A stretch of DNA of 7,938 nt from Phycisphaerae bacterium (GTDB lineage: Bacteria; Planctomycetota; Phycisphaerae; Sedimentisphaerales; SG8-4): NCBI GenBank assembly GCA_030613765.1, contig JAUWLI010000124.1, positions 1 to 7,938 on the forward strand. Direction: 5' to 3'. Shown here one piece after another: positions 1 to 7,938 of the stretch (positions are counted from its first letter, which is position 1; the number at the start of each line of letters is the position of its first letter). A program made the translations under genes and the position numbers. The notes below the pieces were generated by a model. The model searched no databases, had not been told where the DNA came from, and saw nothing but the letters and a program-made list of their open reading frames with translations.

Positions 1-215
1 AAAACAAAGCCAAACAAACCCAAAACGAACCCAAACGAACCCAAAACGAACCCAAACTCAAAAAGGCCAAAATGAACGTAAATAAAGTATTAACAAAGGA
101 TTATGAAAATAAGTCAAATTGGGCAATTTGTGAAAACGAACCCAAAACAAACACAATCAAACCCAACTTGTCGCGGCGTAGCCTCTGGCGAAGACGGAAC
201 AAACCCAATTTCAAA
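1..215. repeat. A/C-rich degenerate intergenic repeat
   Basis: The + strand is strongly biased to A and C. At 19-60 a 10-11 nt unit of the form CCCAAA(A)CGAA is repeated: 19-29, 30-39, 40-50, and a degenerate copy at 51-60. A related copy is at 135-150 and looser ones at 151-168 and 200-212. Between them lie segments whose translation reads MNVNKVLTKDYENK and NKPNFKGKK. I recall such peptides as recurrent spurious ORFs in uncultured Phycisphaerae genomes; this is memory, not a search. The reading frame through it (72-650) overlaps topA in another frame, has no ribosome-binding site and no recognisable domain, so I treat the stretch as a dispersed non-coding repeat rather than a gene. Confidence 0.6.
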
Positions 216-3065: not shown

Positions 3066-3110
3066 CTTGTGCAATCTTTTTTTGATGATTGAGTTTTGAG
3101 TCGCGCCAAG

Positions 3111-5990
3111 ATGAATAATATAGCCCTCCAATCTCTAAACTTTCTTAAGCCTGATGGAAAGCTTGCCACAGGATTAATCCCTGTTCACGATCGAAGAAAT
3201 ATCAAGACTACTCTGAGTATCGATGAGAGAGCTGCCGTTATTAATGCTGAGTTGTTCAACCGAATCGATTTTGTGTACTTTCGTCGGTTCTCAGACGGAC
3301 GTTCATCGCAAGTGGCAGCATATGTCGTCGACAACTCCGATGAGCAGCTCGATGGACGCATACTGGCAGAACTTCACTTGCAAGTCTGGCTCCAAGGAAA
3401 AGCGCCGCTCCTTTATGTGGCGTGGCCAAGTCGAGTAGATGTGTTGACATGTGCACGAGAGCCGGATTTTTGGAACGAACAAGACAAGTCGTGTCAATAT
3501 AATCCCGCCGAGAAACTAAATATCCTGAAAACTGCCGGAGAGATTAGCAGCGAAATACAGAGGTTTTCAGCGTGGCGTCTTGCCGATGGAACATTCTGGG
3601 AGGATCCTTATAATGCCAAATTGGCAAAACACGATAAGGCCGCACATCAATCTCTGATTCAGGCCGTTGTTGAAGCAGACAGGGAGCTTCAAGGTGAAAA
3701 GAATCCAACTCTCCGTCGATTGCTTCTGTTGATGGTGCTCGTTAAGTATCTTGAGGATCGAGGAGTTTTCCCTAATGACGGTTGGTTTGGCCGATTTCAC
3801 AAGGGAGCAAGGAGATTTTTTGACGTTCTGAAGGGAGGTGAACCTGATGAGGTTTATCAGTTGTTGGATTTTCTTGAGCGTAAATTCAACGGCGATGTAT
3901 TTGTTCTCCCAGGTATCGGTCATAAAAAACTCACAAAGGAAAACCTAAAGACATTTGCTGGATTGGTTCAAGCAAGAACTCTGGAGCGCCAGCGATACCT
4001 CTGGGACCAATTCTCTTTCAGGCATCTGCCTGTTGAGATAATTAGCCATCTTTACCAACGATTTGTCAAAGGTGGCCATGGTACTGTCTACACACCTCCT
4101 TTTCTAGCGGCTTTATTGCTGGATCATGCTGTGCCATATAACAACCTTACAGGCGATGAACGAATTTTGGACCCGGCTTGCGGATCGGGAGTCTTTCTTG
4201 TCGGGGCTTTCCGCAGACTGGTAAATGTCTGGCGCAGCCGAAATCGATGGAAAAGGCCGAATGTCAAAGATCTCAAAAAGATTCTACGCCAGAGCATTTA
4301 TGGAATCGATCTGGATAGGAACGCCATTGATCTGGCGGCGTTTAGCTTATCCTTAGCCGTTTGCGATGCCTTGAAGCCGGAGATCATTTGGAAGGAATTG
4401 GAACTCGACCAGCTTCGTGAATCGAACCTGTTCGAAGCAGACTTTTTCCGCGTGCTGCTTGACGCTAGGCTAGGGAGACCGACCATACTAAAGAAACCCT
4501 TCGAAATAATCATTGGTAATCCGCCATTCGAATCGGAAGTAACCGAAGCGGGATATAAAGTTGATCAAGCTGCCAAACTCAAGCATAATAGTCGCGGATC
4601 GCTGCCGGACAAACAGGTGGCGTATCTTTTCCTTGAGCAGGTATTGACAGTTCTATGCCCCAAACATGGCCGATTATGCCTGATTCAACCGGCGGGCTTG
4701 CTTTACAACCGAAATGTTAATAATTTCCGTACTAATCTCTTTCAGCAGTGCGAAATCGATAAAATTCTCGATTTTACTTCGATTCGCAAACTATATGAAG
4801 CAGACCCAAAAACAATCGCAGTGTCTGCTCGGGCATGCAAACCTTTAGATGACCATTGGATTTCTCATTGGACATTTAGACGAACAGTAAGCGTCAAAGA
4901 GAGAATTTGCTTCGAGTTGGACCATTACGACCGCCATCGTGTCTCGCAGGAGCAGGCTGAAGCTGACCAATTCGTATGGCGTGCAAACCTTCTTGGAGGG
5001 GGGCGCCTGGTCGGCATGTCAAAACGTCTGCGGAGCATGCGTACCATGGTAGAATATCTTCAAAAGAAAAAGGAAGAAAAGAGTTGGGATTATGGTGAAG
5101 GTTTCATTGCCGCAGAAACTGGAAGGAGAGAACCGGCTCCTTTCTTAACGGGCAAACCATTCTTACCGACTGACGCCTTCACAATTTCAGGCATTGATGA
5201 AACCCGAATTGGAACAGTTACGGAAACAAAATTCCGGTCTGCATATACAGAGGAACGATATAGTGCACCTTTGATTTTGATAAAGGAAAATGATTCTCTT
5301 CCCGTCGCTTTTTGGAACAAAGGTCCCCTCGCATATCGCCATAAGATTGTCGGAATCCACGCTTCCGAGACACAAGCTGCTGAACTTGGTGTTCTTTATA
5401 AAACGCTCTGCTACAAACACGAGATCTACCGGTTCTGCTGTATTCTGAATGGTTCGCAATCACTTGTTGCCAAAGCAACCGCGATTCTTAAGCGTGATAT
5501 CGATTTACTGCCTTACCCTGAGGATCAGGATGATTTAGCCTTTTCGTTTTGGGAAGAAACCCTGTGCGAAGATGTTCTCAAACATATAACTGAATATGTT
5601 CGCCTCGGTCAAAACTCACGGTTGCTACAGGCACATGCAGGTATTGAAGACATTAGGGAATATTGCAGTACGTTCGTTCGAATGCTTGGCAGTGTTTACG
5701 ACAACTTGCGGGCAACTGACCCTGTTTTCCTCAATGGATTGATATGTCAACCATTTTACTTCGGTGACCCTCCGAGTTTGTCTTGGCTAAATCGTGACTC
5801 TGAAGATGAGTTGCGTAAGCTCGTTTATTACGAAAATCATGAGCTTCTTCGAACAGTTAGGATTTTCCGCTTATACATGGAAAATGTTATTCTGATTGTC
5901 AAGCCGGATAGACTTCGTTACTGGATTCGTTCTACGGCGATTAAAGACGCCGATGAAACGCTTATAGATTTAAGAAATCAGGGATACTAA
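3111..5990 (+). CDS. N6-adenine DNA methyltransferase of a restriction-modification system (Eco57I-like)
   Basis: A class I SAM-dependent DNA methyltransferase expected to methylate the N6 of adenine in a specific target, protecting host DNA. Numbering is from the upstream TTG at 3096 (964 aa). Visible motifs: motif X-like GTVYTPPFLAALLLD (329-343), SAM-binding motif I ILDPACGSGVFL (357-368), acidic motif II YGIDLDRNAIDLA (402-414) and catalytic motif IV IIGNPPF (472-478). A strand like GRLCLIQPAGLL (525-536) follows. Residues of about 640-810, ending in ILKRDIDLLPYP, look like a target-recognition region. The N-terminal 330 residues carry FRRFSDGR and LLYVAWPSRVDVLTC but no D..ExK nuclease triad that I can see, so a fused type IIG endonuclease is not supported; the next gene may supply it. 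I prefer ATG 3111 (959 aa); TTG 3096 is possible, and neither has a strong ribosome-binding site. Codon use is more A/T-rich than in topA. Specificity cannot be read from the sequence. Confidence 0.88.
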   Translation: MNNIALQSLNFLKPDGKLATGLIPVHDRRNIKTTLSIDERAAVINAELFNRIDFVYFRRFSDGRSSQVAAYVVDNSDEQLDGRILAELHLQVWLQGKAPLLYVAWPSRVDVLTCAREPDFWNEQDKSCQYNPAEKLNILKTAGEISSEIQRFSAWRLADGTFWEDPYNAKLAKHDKAAHQSLIQAVVEADRELQGEKNPTLRRLLLLMVLVKYLEDRGVFPNDGWFGRFHKGARRFFDVLKGGEPDEVYQLLDFLERKFNGDVFVLPGIGHKKLTKENLKTFAGLVQARTLERQRYLWDQFSFRHLPVEIISHLYQRFVKGGHGTVYTPPFLAALLLDHAVPYNNLTGDERILDPACGSGVFLVGAFRRLVNVWRSRNRWKRPNVKDLKKILRQSIYGIDLDRNAIDLAAFSLSLAVCDALKPEIIWKELELDQLRESNLFEADFFRVLLDARLGRPTILKKPFEIIIGNPPFESEVTEAGYKVDQAAKLKHNSRGSLPDKQVAYLFLEQVLTVLCPKHGRLCLIQPAGLLYNRNVNNFRTNLFQQCEIDKILDFTSIRKLYEADPKTIAVSARACKPLDDHWISHWTFRRTVSVKERICFELDHYDRHRVSQEQAEADQFVWRANLLGGGRLVGMSKRLRSMRTMVEYLQKKKEEKSWDYGEGFIAAETGRREPAPFLTGKPFLPTDAFTISGIDETRIGTVTETKFRSAYTEERYSAPLILIKENDSLPVAFWNKGPLAYRHKIVGIHASETQAAELGVLYKTLCYKHEIYRFCCILNGSQSLVAKATAILKRDIDLLPYPEDQDDLAFSFWEETLCEDVLKHITEYVRLGQNSRLLQAHAGIEDIREYCSTFVRMLGSVYDNLRATDPVFLNGLICQPFYFGDPPSLSWLNRDSEDELRKLVYYENHELLRTVRIFRLYMENVILIVKPDRLRYWIRSTAIKDADETLIDLRNQGY

Positions 5991-5992
5991 GA

Positions 5993-6697
5993 ATGCGGAG
6001 GAAACAGAGCAAGACAAGTTCTATTGGACAAATCACTTGCGGAATAACCTTAAAAACTCTCGCTCTGAAAACGATCGCTTTTGTGCGTGAGCAGTTGCCG
6101 ACTTGGCGAGATGACCCAAATAGACAGAATGAGCAATCCGAAAACAAATTGAACCTTCAATTATGCAAGTTCCTCGATTCCAGAACTCGTAAAGTTTTTC
6201 CTATGGTTTGCTTTTATCGTGAAGAGTACCAAACTGGTCGTCGAAGTGTCGATCTATCGGCATCTCTTGCAGAAAGCAAGGTTATTGAAGCAAAAACATA
6301 TTCAATCTACGATACTATTCTTGTTCTGGAAGGTAAGAGAATCCCTGCTCCTTCACCAGACCGAGAAAAAGAGTATGTTATTGGAGCTACTTCGGGAAAG
6401 ATAAGCGGAGGGATTCAGAGATTCAAGATGGGGCTACACGGAGCAGAGCAGGACCTTGCGGCAATGGTCGGGTATGTACAGGCTCACACACCTCGTTACT
6501 GGCAAAAGAAGATCAACGAATGGATTGTCCAGCATTCAAGCGATTCAATGGAAGACGGTTGCGTATGGAACGATGATGAAACTCTTAAGCCCCTTACAGC
6601 AGATATCAAAAGGGGTATTGTTAGTTACTGCTCATTGCATAATCGAATATCTGGAAATAAGATAGAAATCCATCATCTTTGGATTGTAATGAATTAG
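5993..6697 (+). CDS. putative PD-(D/E)XK restriction endonuclease partner
   Basis: A 234-residue soluble protein without signal peptide or membrane segment. It begins 2 nt after the methyltransferase stop, with AGGGA at 5980-5984 eight nt before the ATG, so the two genes are co-transcribed and probably translationally coupled. A restriction-type core can be proposed: a helix with E50 (SENKLNLQLCKFL), then D87 in RRSVDLSAS, and E113-G114-K115 in ILVLEGKRIP. This gives the order E..D..ExK typical of the PD-(D/E)XK fold. Conserved-looking stretches follow: PDREKEYVIG (122-131), GGIQRFKMGLHG (139-150) and MVGYVQ (158-163). I recall small proteins with this EGKR..REKEYV..GGIxRFK layout beside adenine methyltransferases, but cannot name a family. 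IEAK at 98-101 is an alternative ExK but sits close to D87. Nuclease activity is inferred from motif and context; it could instead be a specificity or accessory subunit. Confidence 0.6.
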   Translation: MRRKQSKTSSIGQITCGITLKTLALKTIAFVREQLPTWRDDPNRQNEQSENKLNLQLCKFLDSRTRKVFPMVCFYREEYQTGRRSVDLSASLAESKVIEAKTYSIYDTILVLEGKRIPAPSPDREKEYVIGATSGKISGGIQRFKMGLHGAEQDLAAMVGYVQAHTPRYWQKKINEWIVQHSSDSMEDGCVWNDDETLKPLTADIKRGIVSYCSLHNRISGNKIEIHHLWIVMN

Positions 6698-6737: not shown

Positions 6738-6770
6738 CTGAATCCCTGCATACGACATACAGGGATTCGG
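6738..6770. other. second stem-loop after the operon
   Basis: GAATCCCTG (6740-6748) and CAGGGATTC (6760-6768) form a perfect 9-bp stem with an 11-nt loop. One G-U pair and one C-G pair extend it outward to 6738 and 6770. No run of T follows directly on either strand, so it is not a canonical intrinsic terminator. Confidence 0.5.
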
Positions 6771-6774
6771 GCGG

Positions 6775-6808
6775 CCTCAGTGAGATAACGTTTCACTATC
6801 TCACGAGG
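6775..6808. terminator. strong third stem-loop, possible operon terminator
   Basis: CCTC (6775-6778) plus GTGAGATA (6780-6787) pair with TATCTCAC (6797-6804) plus GAGG (6805-6808). This makes 12 bp with one bulged A at 6779 and a 9-nt loop. It is the strongest hairpin of the three after the operon. A T-rich run occurs only at about 6831-6842, some 22 nt later, so intrinsic termination here is possible but atypical; a factor-dependent stop or an mRNA-stabilising structure is equally likely. Confidence 0.4.
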
Positions 6809-6844
6809 TAAACCAAAAAAAAGTTAATATTTTCTTTTTTTTGT

Positions 6845-6874
6845 TTGCATTGTTTGATATTCTGTTAATATACT
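6845..6874 (+). promoter_or_regulatory. promoter candidate in front of the hairpin array
   Basis: TTGCAT (6845-6850), an 18-nt spacer and TATACT (6869-6874; five of six consensus positions) lie in an AT-rich stretch. Transcription would start near 6881, which is the first base of the first hairpin of the array. The -35 is weak (three of six), so the fit could be chance in AT-rich DNA. Confidence 0.3.
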
Positions 6875-6880
6875 TGTATG

Positions 6881-7057
6881 TTTGCCAGTGGGCAAACGTA
6901 AATCGCCAGCAGGCGCCGGATATAGCCCAGGAGGGCACGAAAGCGGAGAACCGCACGAAAAGGGGCAAGACGCCCACGGAAAGGGAACAGCAGTTCCACG
7001 AAAGCCCAGAAGGGCAAGAGTCAGCACCAGCATGCGAAGGATATAACCCAAGTGGGC
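6881..7057 (+). repeat. array of about nine small phased hairpins (unrecognised element)
   Basis: Consecutive short inverted repeats, written stem-loop-stem: TTTGCC-AGTG-GGCAAA (6881-6896), CGCC-AGCA-GGCG (6904-6915), GCCC-AGGA-GGGC (6925-6936), GCGG-AGAA-CCGC (6943-6954), GGGC-AAGAC-GCCC (6963-6975), GGAAC-AGCA-GTTCC (6984-6997), GCCC-AGAA-GGGC (7004-7015), GCA-CCAGCA-TGC (7024-7035) and CCC-AAGT-GGG (7047-7056). Stem sequences differ but remain complementary. Loops are mostly AGNA, and the sequence after the stem is ACGAAA or close to it in units 3-6. Loop centres are 18-21.5 nt apart, mostly near 21. GGATATA precedes units 3 and 9, so 6918-6940 and 7039-7061 match at 20 of 23 positions. 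Reading frames exist on both strands but code for nothing recognisable. The direction of the A-rich linkers favours action as a + strand RNA or ssDNA. I do not recognise a named family. Confidence 0.65.
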
Positions 7058-7066
7058 ACGAGATAA

Positions 7067-7099
7067 ATAAGGGAAAAGGGATAAGTGATAAGGGAAAAG
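7067..7099. repeat. 21-bp-period purine-rich direct repeat
   Basis: ATAAGGGAAAAG occurs at 7067-7078 and again at 7088-7099, exactly 21 bp apart, separated by GGATAAGTG. The spacing continues the period of the hairpin array immediately to the left, although these units do not form hairpins. It may be a degenerated continuation of the array or an unrelated low-complexity repeat. Confidence 0.6.
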
Positions 7100-7116
7100 T
7101 GCGCAGTGTCTTGTCC

Positions 7117-7133
7117 TGTGATAAGTTGTCACA
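7117..7133. other. inverted repeat near the presumed IS left end
   Basis: TGTGA (7117-7121) and TCACA (7129-7133) form a short inverted repeat with 7 nt between. It lies between the presumed IS end and orfA, where it could bind the OrfA helix-turn-helix protein or form part of the transposase binding site. It is short and only suggestive. Confidence 0.3.
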
Positions 7134-7169
7134 TAAATATTTTTGATTTACTTATTATAGGAGAATATC

Positions 7170-7571
7170 ATGCAGCAGAGGTTGGTAATTCGTTATAGTA
7201 TGAACTTTAAGCGGCAGGTTGTCTCGGAGCTTGAATCCGGCCGGTTCGATAGCATTGTACAGGCTTCTGAGCATTACGGGATTACCGGCTCAATGACGAT
7301 TAGGAAGTGGCTTGGCAAATTCGGAAGAAACCATTTATGTCCAAAGGTGATTCGCGTGGAAAAACCAAACGAACAAGATCAAGTGCGGCAATTAAAAAAA
7401 CAGATCAAACAACTCAAAGAGGCCCTGGGGCAGACTCAGGCAGAGAATGTTATCAACCAGGAATTCCTCAAGATCGCCTGCGAGGAAATGGGCCAGGATG
7501 TCGATGCTTTCAAAAAAAAAGCCGATACCAAGCGGTCCACGGAGGAAGGGGACGATCAGAGATCAGTGTGA
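7170..7571 (+). CDS. IS3-family transposase OrfA (DNA-binding subunit)
   Basis: A 133-residue OrfA. Residues of about 11-52 form the helix-turn-helix of the transposase_8 type: MNFKRQVVSELESG, then SIVQASEHYGI and SMTIRKWLGKFG. RVEKPNEQDQ leads into a lysine- and glutamine-rich leucine-zipper coiled coil (about 69-105), used in this family for OrfA and OrfAB dimerisation. OrfA binds the IS ends and regulates transposition; the fusion protein OrfAB catalyses it. The start is supported by AGGAG at 7159-7163, 6 nt before the ATG. The last 16 or so residues lie beyond the A9 run and are dispensable-looking. The length is normal for the family and there is no internal damage. I can place it in IS3 but not in a subgroup. 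Confidence 0.9.
   Translation: MQQRLVIRYSMNFKRQVVSELESGRFDSIVQASEHYGITGSMTIRKWLGKFGRNHLCPKVIRVEKPNEQDQVRQLKKQIKQLKEALGQTQAENVINQEFLKIACEEMGQDVDAFKKKADTKRSTEEGDDQRSV
7512..7520 (+). other. programmed -1 frameshift site (A9)
   Basis: Nine consecutive A residues encode KKK (codons 115-117) of OrfA. A slip by -1 here joins orfA to the orfB frame, which is open from the run to the end of the window (next residues SRYQAVHGGRGRSE). IS3-family elements make the OrfAB transposase this way. The purine-rich GGAGGAAGGGG at 7541-7551 lies downstream, so it is more likely a ribosome-binding site for a separate orfB start than an upstream stimulator. Confidence 0.7.
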
Positions 7572-7938
7572 TTCGGCTTTGTAAGGTTGTTAGGATGAGT
7601 CGTCAGAATTATTATAAGCATCGACATTATCGCCGCGGGCGTGAAGTTGACGAAGAATTAATTTTGTCTCTTGTTCGACGTGAGCGAGCGATCCAGCCTC
7701 AATTAGGTGCCCGTAAGCTGTTGCATATTCTCGGAGGTAAACTGAAGTCGGCTGGCGTTTCTGTGGGCAGAGACAAGTTTTTTTCGATTCTTGACAGAAG
7801 CTCGCTTTTGATCAAGAGGCGGTTCAAAGGTTACAGGACGACCGACAGCCGTCATCGTTTTCGGGTTTACGGTAATCTGCTCAAGGATTTTGTTTTGACG
7901 TCTCCGCATCAGGCTCTGGTCAGTGATATTACTTATAT
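7568..7938 (+). CDS. IS3-family transposase OrfB, N-terminal part (truncated)
   Basis: The first 123 codons of OrfB in the -1 frame relative to orfA, continuing past the right edge. The N-terminal region matches the HTH_21 layout of IS3 transposases: CKVVRMSRQNYYKHR, then LGARKLLHIL and VSVGRDKFFSIL. It ends at ALVSDITY, where the D at 7925-7927 is the first aspartate of the DDE (rve) catalytic triad; the family's usual tryptophan before VSDITY is L here. The other two catalytic residues lie outside. The protein is probably made mainly as an OrfAB fusion through the A9 slip at 7512-7520. A separate start at GTG 7568, overlapping the orfA stop, or ATG 7595 is also possible, so the given start is provisional. 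Confidence 0.85.
   Translation, partial: MIRLCKVVRMSRQNYYKHRHYRRGREVDEELILSLVRRERAIQPQLGARKLLHILGGKLKSAGVSVGRDKFFSILDRSSLLIKRRFKGYRTTDSRHRFRVYGNLLKDFVLTSPHQALVSDITY

Follow-up and report, generated by a model that had tools for sequence, protein, structure and literature searches.

The window, by which we mean the whole stretch of 7,938 nucleotides analyzed here, contains parts of two copies of one kind of repeat element. At its left edge, on the + strand, positions 1 to 213 are the 3' part, or tail, of a copy upstream of topA. This part has the composition of the tails at other loci, contains ATGAACGTAAATAAAGTATTAACAAAGGATTATGAAAATAA at 72 to 113, and ends with CCCAATTTC near 213; the 5' part of that copy lies outside the window. 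Upstream of the second copy are topA, an Eco57I-like N6 methylase gene (PF07669), and a gene of 234 aa without a Pfam or NCBIfam match, the last two occupying 3096 to 6697, which is probably a restriction-modification or related defense locus. Two palindromes, GAATCCCTGCAT/ATACAGGGATTC at 6740 to 6768 and GTGAGATA/TATCTCAC at 6780 to 6804, stand directly upstream of the second copy. Look-alikes occur inside or near the hairpin-bearing leaders of other copies (e.g., L102, L107, L140, and L149), and they look like separate repeat families.

The second copy begins with an A/T-rich 5' end and a sigma70-like promoter of class B (6812 to 6877, + strand), with a poor -35-like TTTGCA at 6844 to 6849 and a -10-like TAATAT at 6866 to 6871. 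After the hairpin array, the left part of an insertion that we take to be IS3-like stands directly behind the leader (7107 to 7936, + strand) and runs off the window. Its first ORF has no Pfam match and is 99% identical to an ORF in the MAG Phycisphaerae bacterium (L001). The L001 copy of the insertion shares DNA from window position 7106, the identical start point, and has no array beside it; thus, the array is not part of the insertion.

The hairpin array

From 6880 to 7015, seven hairpins follow one another on the + strand, each with a stem of 4 bp or more that is complementary throughout. In the first (6878 to 6899), a TTTGCC agtg GGCAAA core is enclosed by outer GC, T.G, and A-T pairs, so that the perfect GTTTGCC/GGCAAAC stem extends by eye to A6878-T6899, including one T.G wobble; its first paired base lies about 7 nt behind the -10. 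The others are CGCC agca GGCG (6904 to 6915), GCCC agga GGGC (6925 to 6936), GCGG agaa CCGC (6943 to 6954), which is the core hairpin of the family, GGGC aagac GCCC (6963 to 6975), GGAAC agca GTTCC (6984 to 6997), and GCCC agaa GGGC (7004 to 7015). A chain of seven did not arise in any of 2,000 dinucleotide shuffles of 6860 to 7100 (maximum, 3) or when the whole window was shuffled 60 times (maximum, 5), and none of 110 further stretches of 241 nt from the window had one (maximum, 3). The predicted RNA fold was more stable than the shuffles on both strands (z of -4.0 for + and -5.0 for -). Among 133 leaders, this chain is the longest; the runner-up has five hairpins, and most have two or three.

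A preliminary description of the locus had placed about nine inverted repeats at 6881 to 7057, with loops close to AGNA and linkers close to ACGAAA. The array is indeed there, and its stems change from unit to unit with pairing kept, as they also do between homologous leaders; the loop is AGNA in five of the seven units (AGTG and AAGAC in the other two), and an ACGAAA-like linker follows four. The count of nine includes two units that no longer pair, and the span omits the promoter and the remainder of the element. Positions 7027 to 7061 on the + strand (repeat family D1) are an 83% direct repeat of 6906 to 6940, i.e., of hairpins 2 and 3, in which pairing has decayed (CACC/TGCG; ACCC/GGGC). 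This decayed duplicate suggests that the array grew by copying of units. The array did not prove to be a fragment of a known Rfam element, an outcome that the preliminary description had named as refuting: the window had no Rfam match at the gathering threshold and five related loci had none at E values up to 0.5, and a described Rfam RNA was rejected on these grounds. Most hairpins also lack a REP-type tag.

A dispersed element with a leader, a tail, and sometimes an ORF

The array had been regarded as an element in itself. As read from sequence, it is instead the 5' leader of a larger, dispersed, promoter-bearing repeat element of Phycisphaerae that has a tail and, where complete, an ORF for a small protein. 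When the MAG Phycisphaerae bacterium was searched at the DNA level, further array-like places came up. Within one family of 89 genomes, the core hairpin AGCGGAGNACCGCACG (at most one mismatch) occurs at least once in 38 genomes and at least five times in 11, where the counts range from 5 to 64 (G017, 64; G018, 31; G059, 27; G016, 19; the other seven, at most 11). The reversed core pattern never exceeded three per genome. The search of relatives with a covariance model, as proposed in the preliminary description, yielded matches to the class B leader in 13 of 397 genomes of the class at an E value of ≤0.001. This model (R1) matched the window at 6833 to 6938 with 111.7 bits. Weak R1 matches in G272 and G282 (E values of 4e-5 to 6e-4; L239, L240, and L251), in which the stems are not visible, may be matches to the promoter only. 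With up to nine candidates scored per genome in this search and up to 40 in the search for tails, copy numbers are to be read as "at least," and absences from genomes weigh little since many genomes are fragmented.

The element opens with an A/T-rich 5' end, followed by a sigma70-like promoter (at least two classes exist) and usually two to four hairpins; an ORF of about 190 aa is sometimes present, and an A/C-rich tail ending with CCCAATTTC closes it. Class A promoters read TTGAACA ... TTTGGTATAAT and class B promoters TTGACT ... TGTTAAAATAC; one or the other was found within 200 nt upstream in all 60 core-bearing regions of four genomes, with up to three errors allowed. The tail followed the leader on the same strand in 50 of these 60 regions, and 7 of the other 10 reach the contig end soon after the leader. 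Because these leaders were first selected by the core hairpin, which favors copies that have it, selection by the tail served as a check. Of 20 tail-picked regions of G017, hand-chosen mainly from outside the first set (L317 was added since it contains an ORF copy), 16 had a class A or B promoter and a leader start, and L298, among the other four, retains the core hairpin. Conservation sets in sharply some 60 nt ahead of the last base of the -10 (51 class A and 50 class B leaders) and drops after CCCAATTTC at the 3' end (39 tails, lined up by that motif).

Two other readings of these parts were rejected. The array could have been a leader of adjacent chromosomal genes; however, by eye, a number of the genes downstream have their own promoter-like sequence, which lies behind the tail, and some are oriented in the opposite direction. 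The tail as a conserved protein was likewise discarded, as by eye its frame stops at arbitrary positions and one translation had no Pfam or NCBIfam match. Translated, the tail gives MNVNKVLTKDYENK..., whose ends are arbitrary (window 72 to 170; tails of L129, L136, and L142); proteins of this kind occur in databases, presumably by spurious annotation.

In L309 and L314, the class A promoter is fused straight to the second class B hairpin (CGCC agta GGCG), so that modules mix, yet the place behind the promoter is still occupied by a hairpin. In L008, L150, and L151, a second hairpin, CCCCTTAGGGG, sits within the loop of the first, and the outer stem is retained around the insertion. In L106, L108, L110, L114, and L142, the first class A hairpin has an A/T-rich insertion of about 60 to 70 nt where its 5' arm should be; near-identical ones turn up in different copies. 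Low-complexity runs of slightly varied, repeated words (such as TTCGTGTTCTTCGTGG and CAATAATCAATAATC) lie around or inside elements, e.g., at L118, L142, and L149.

In some copies, the leader is followed by the ORF of about 190 aa, whose product we label the KHGL protein after a conserved motif. A protein search of 14 genomes gave 17 near-complete ORF copies in 10 genomes. The leader models matched ahead of nine copies and found no leader at the other eight; at L259 and L263, the ORF stands behind another promoter-like sequence without hairpins. A GGAG lies shortly ahead of the start in 14 of the 16 ORFs read. With dN/dS ratios of 0.12 to 0.41 in 12 chosen pairs, the ORF is under purifying selection. 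Three query proteins had 3,627, 2,950, and 2,365 matches, and there was no Pfam domain among the 120 matches listed for each; across the phylum, 18 of 392 genomes had a protein match at 1e-10. Four of the proteins had no Pfam or NCBIfam match at E values up to 1, which includes reverse transcriptases; two matched no PHROGs family, and a profile found no sequence match in the PDB. The predicted protein model is all-helical but poor (pLDDT of 64) and revealed no known nucleic-acid-binding fold. Foldseek with this low-confidence model returned nothing significant, the best hits being a viral terminase small subunit (E value of 0.29) and, in the PDB, one at an E value of 1.3.

Pairing and promoter spacing of the leaders

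The leader models were built from standard-length leaders only, 29 of 51 in class B (with L202 dropped and the window added) and 47 of 53 in class A. In the 29 class B leaders, 95.1% of cells were paired, and pairing fell to 30 to 40% when the partners were slid by one to three columns. Six of the 17 base pairs were changed on both sides, against a mean of 1.5 in the shuffles and no value as high in 500 of them, relatedness not being corrected for. One class B outer pair is U-G in 20 of 29 leaders and U-A in 8, and these can pair on the + strand only. In the 47 class A leaders, two of nine pairs were changed on both sides, which 3 of 500 shuffles reached (again with no correction for relatedness), and one slid control matched the covariation score, so this set proves little. 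Similarly, a set in which the core was required had 53 of 70 cells paired, which is not above the best shuffle (54). The suggestion that variation in the stems preserves pairing, with its test for compensatory changes between homologous arrays, is thus borne out by class B, above shuffles, and is unconvincing for class A alone.

Individual stems have also been replaced. Window hairpin 3 is GCCC/GGGC, against GCGG agaa CCGC in 28 aligned relatives, which were chosen by that hairpin. In the distant leaders L238 and L249, the corresponding place is taken by another, wholly different perfect stem whose loop is of the same type (CGTTCATC agta GATGAACG). A strand bias of mismatches was considered as proof of RNA and dropped, as none was seen: by eye, G.T mismatches were not in excess of A.C (4 versus 3 in class A and 6 versus 8 in class B).

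In 60 of 82 class A leaders and 35 of 55 class B leaders, a perfect hairpin began no more than 12 nt from the -10; shuffles gave means of 10.3 (maximum, 20) and 9.0 (maximum, 15), respectively. The first paired base was most often separated from the -10 by 7 nt in class A (38 of 60) and by 8 nt in class B (19 of 35). This near-constant gap holds across unrelated stems, i.e., GCCAT/ATGGC, AACATG/CATGTT, and TCGCC/GGCGA in class A and GTTTGCC/GGCAAAC and its variants in class B. Transcription usually starts about 7 nt behind the -10, so that, with the promoter just upstream, the RNA is predicted to start at the first stem or no more than a few bases from it. Homologues with unpaired stems, which had been named beforehand as an argument against a selected fold, do exist: 22 of 82 class A leaders and 20 of 55 class B leaders have no perfect first hairpin, and this counts against our main reading. 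Many of the imperfect ones have one mismatch or a nested hairpin or insertion in the loop, and in some class A leaders an insertion replaces the 5' arm.

Spread of the element, rival explanations, and known systems

Most copies have both ends and little or nothing of the ORF. Among 80 leader-tail intervals (24 leaders, counted with repeats, had no recognized tail within 1,300 nt and were left out), 3 contained a near-complete ORF, 21 contained part of the ORF 3' end, and 56 had no remnant at the threshold used, so that 77 keep both ends without a near-full ORF. Shuffled and reverse-complemented intervals, as two controls, gave no remnants. Twenty of the 21 remnants are from G017, nearly all stand directly or almost directly before the tail, and 13 begin at nt 565 of 609. 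From this common breakpoint, one may suspect a master copy with a deletion or, alternatively, a 3' signal that includes the last 43 nt.

Upstream of one gene, the element is present in G016 and G017, with a tail-like remnant in G064 and none seen in eight genomes (up to 900 nt); upstream of another, it is present in G016, G017, and G018, and none was seen in eight genomes (up to 900 nt). At three sites judged orthologous (0.8 to 1.4 kb compared), the 3' flank is common and the 5' flank and leader class differ. Ectopic recombination and independent insertion each fit this pattern. Because orthologous sites differ in leader class, a leader does not stay with its copy, which again counts against the main reading. 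The ORF copies L262, L265, and L259 lie at an apparent single orthologous site in three genomes and differ in their 5' ends, one being class A, one class B, and one another promoter without hairpins.

Tails cluster by genome: labels changed 14 times on the tree, compared with 29.6 times in shuffles. Their identity is 65 to 89% at the same site across genomes, with means of 80 to 86% within genomes and 71 to 78% between genomes (58 rows, 54 of them different; four loci under two names raise the within-genome means a little). This clustering fits recent amplification, homogenization, or ectopic recombination. No target-site duplication was found in 74 elements, where the longest shared flank word averaged 2.74 against 3.26 (standard deviation, 0.26) for re-paired flanks; the mobility of the element is therefore putative. 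As for enzymes that might act on it, Y1_Tnp (PF01797) matches were present in all 10 copy-bearing genomes and in 5 of 14 control genomes. In G018, which has four Y1 transposase genes, two are separated from a leader copy by 1.6 and 4.4 kb (G018:C71 and G018:C10). RVT_1 was present in 4 of the 10 copy-bearing genomes and was not found in G015, G016, G018, and G059, which have 9 to 31 core hairpins each and may be incomplete.

From these observations, we infer that the element is transcribed, that its hairpins act as RNA at the 5' end through RNA stabilization or protein binding, and that it moves. RNA polymerase would start within a few bases of the first hairpin, and the RNA would open with a stem followed by phased hairpins with mostly AGNA loops. 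A 5'-terminal stem-loop is said, in work by Emory from 1992 (cited in PMC7509114), to be able to stabilize mRNA in E. coli; by analogy, the hairpin chain could hinder 5'-end-dependent decay. It could also offer repeated sites for an RNA-binding protein, most likely the element's own. The leader and tail may be the parts needed in cis for spread, as the ORF-less copies that retain both suggest. We lean toward a function in which the element RNA folds into hairpins at its 5' end that protect it, mark it for the element's own protein, or both. A broader proposal is more tentative and, in our view, doubtful as it stands: the element might belong to a new class of selfish or mobile element, in which a small helical KHGL protein recognizes the 5' RNA hairpin chain and the 3' A/C-rich tail of its own and ORF-less transcripts and drives spread without terminal repeats, target duplication, or a known transposase.

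The preliminary description had offered a structured RNA, a single-stranded DNA substrate, or a set of protein-binding sites. A structured RNA fits best, owing to the near-constant distance of the first hairpin behind the -10 in two leader classes. The same distance argues against hairpins acting as single-stranded DNA for a host Y1 (HUH) transposase, like REP with RAYT or IS200/IS605 ends with TnpA, the promoter being incidental. No target-site duplication is known for IS200/IS605 elements either. This agreement, the Y1 matches in every copy-bearing genome, and the lack of a G.T excess speak for such a role; however, Y1 genes occur in control genomes as well, the element has its visible hairpins at the 5' end, and a tag of the GTAG or CGTC type lies within 6 nt of only 72 of 687 leader hairpins, so we consider it unlikely. 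Somewhat less likely than this is that the repeats are inert and decaying, moved by chance, with paired stems inherited from a few master copies. First stems broken in a quarter to a third of the leaders, the decayed duplicate in the window, and tails that cluster by genome are what such repeats might show, but paired changes in class B, replaced yet perfect stems in distant genomes, and purifying selection on the ORF are not.

Repeated near-AGNA loops, phased linkers, and many promoter-bearing copies would also suit a regulatory RNA family whose hairpin chain titrates a host RNA-binding protein, as CsrB titrates CsrA. We rate this a shade below inert repeats, as the loops are AGAA, AGCA, and alike rather than the GGA of CsrA sites, the leader is accompanied by a tail and sometimes an ORF, and the copy number varies greatly between genomes. 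Retroposition of the transcript, with a structured 5' end, an A-rich tail, a chaperone-like protein, and a reverse transcriptase from elsewhere, seems very improbable. The A-rich 3' tail has a defined end, and tails cluster by genome, as recent amplification would lead one to expect; however, copies contain about 60 nt upstream of the predicted start that a transcript from that promoter would lose, RVT_1 matches are confined to 4 of 10 genomes (some may be incomplete), and there is no target-site duplication.

If the 5' RNA reading is true, the element represents a further type of repeat, one in which a 5' RNA structure is coupled to a tail located apart from it, and it accounts for some of the intergenic DNA of Phycisphaerae, which is rich in repeats. 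The ORF family has thousands of members in public data, with no Pfam domain among the matches listed, and the leader and tail make it testable, since a defined promoter and a covarying structure can be assayed jointly with a protein. Within the literature searched, no description of this element was found.

Several known systems are similar in part. Dispersed short hairpins are also known as the double-hairpin elements of fungal and algal mitochondria, for which we know of no promoter, tail, or ORF. In CsrB and RsmZ sponge RNAs, rows of small hairpins have GGA in their loops as CsrA sites. The present leader is likewise a row of small hairpins with a repeated loop motif, but its first-hairpin loops are mostly AGAA and AGCA, there are many copies, and complete copies have an ORF. 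The ompA-type stabilizer resembles it in having a stem-loop at the predicted RNA 5' end, with more stem-loops before the ORF here; unlike that stabilizer, the leader lies within a dispersed repeat and has up to seven hairpins.

Correia-type MITEs are described as short, dispersed, ORF-less copies of a longer element with sigma70-like promoters and transcripts predicted to form stem-loops (PMC10969869). The present element is similarly short and dispersed, with ORF-less copies, a sigma70-like promoter, and predicted stem-loops. By eye, however, it has no terminal inverted repeats, its A/T-rich 5' end differing from the CCCAATTTC 3' end, and it differs from MITEs and insertion sequences in showing no target-site duplication and in an ORF of no known transposase family. 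IS families without target-site duplication exist. REP and REPIN sequences are described as small palindromes with many intergenic copies and few full protein-coding copies per genome, and Planctomycetes are named there among the hosts of REP-type repeats (PMC3733652, PMC6006769). Many small intergenic palindromes and few full protein-coding copies are found here as well; in contrast to REP/RAYT, the hairpins are mostly without a tag (GTAG, CTAC, CGTC, or GACG within 6 nt in the 72 of 687 mentioned above), the stems vary, and the palindromes are located between a promoter and an ORF that belongs to no known transposase family. Taken as labels, REP, MITE, known transposase, and retroelement each failed a defining test, although the element may still work in a way similar to one of them.
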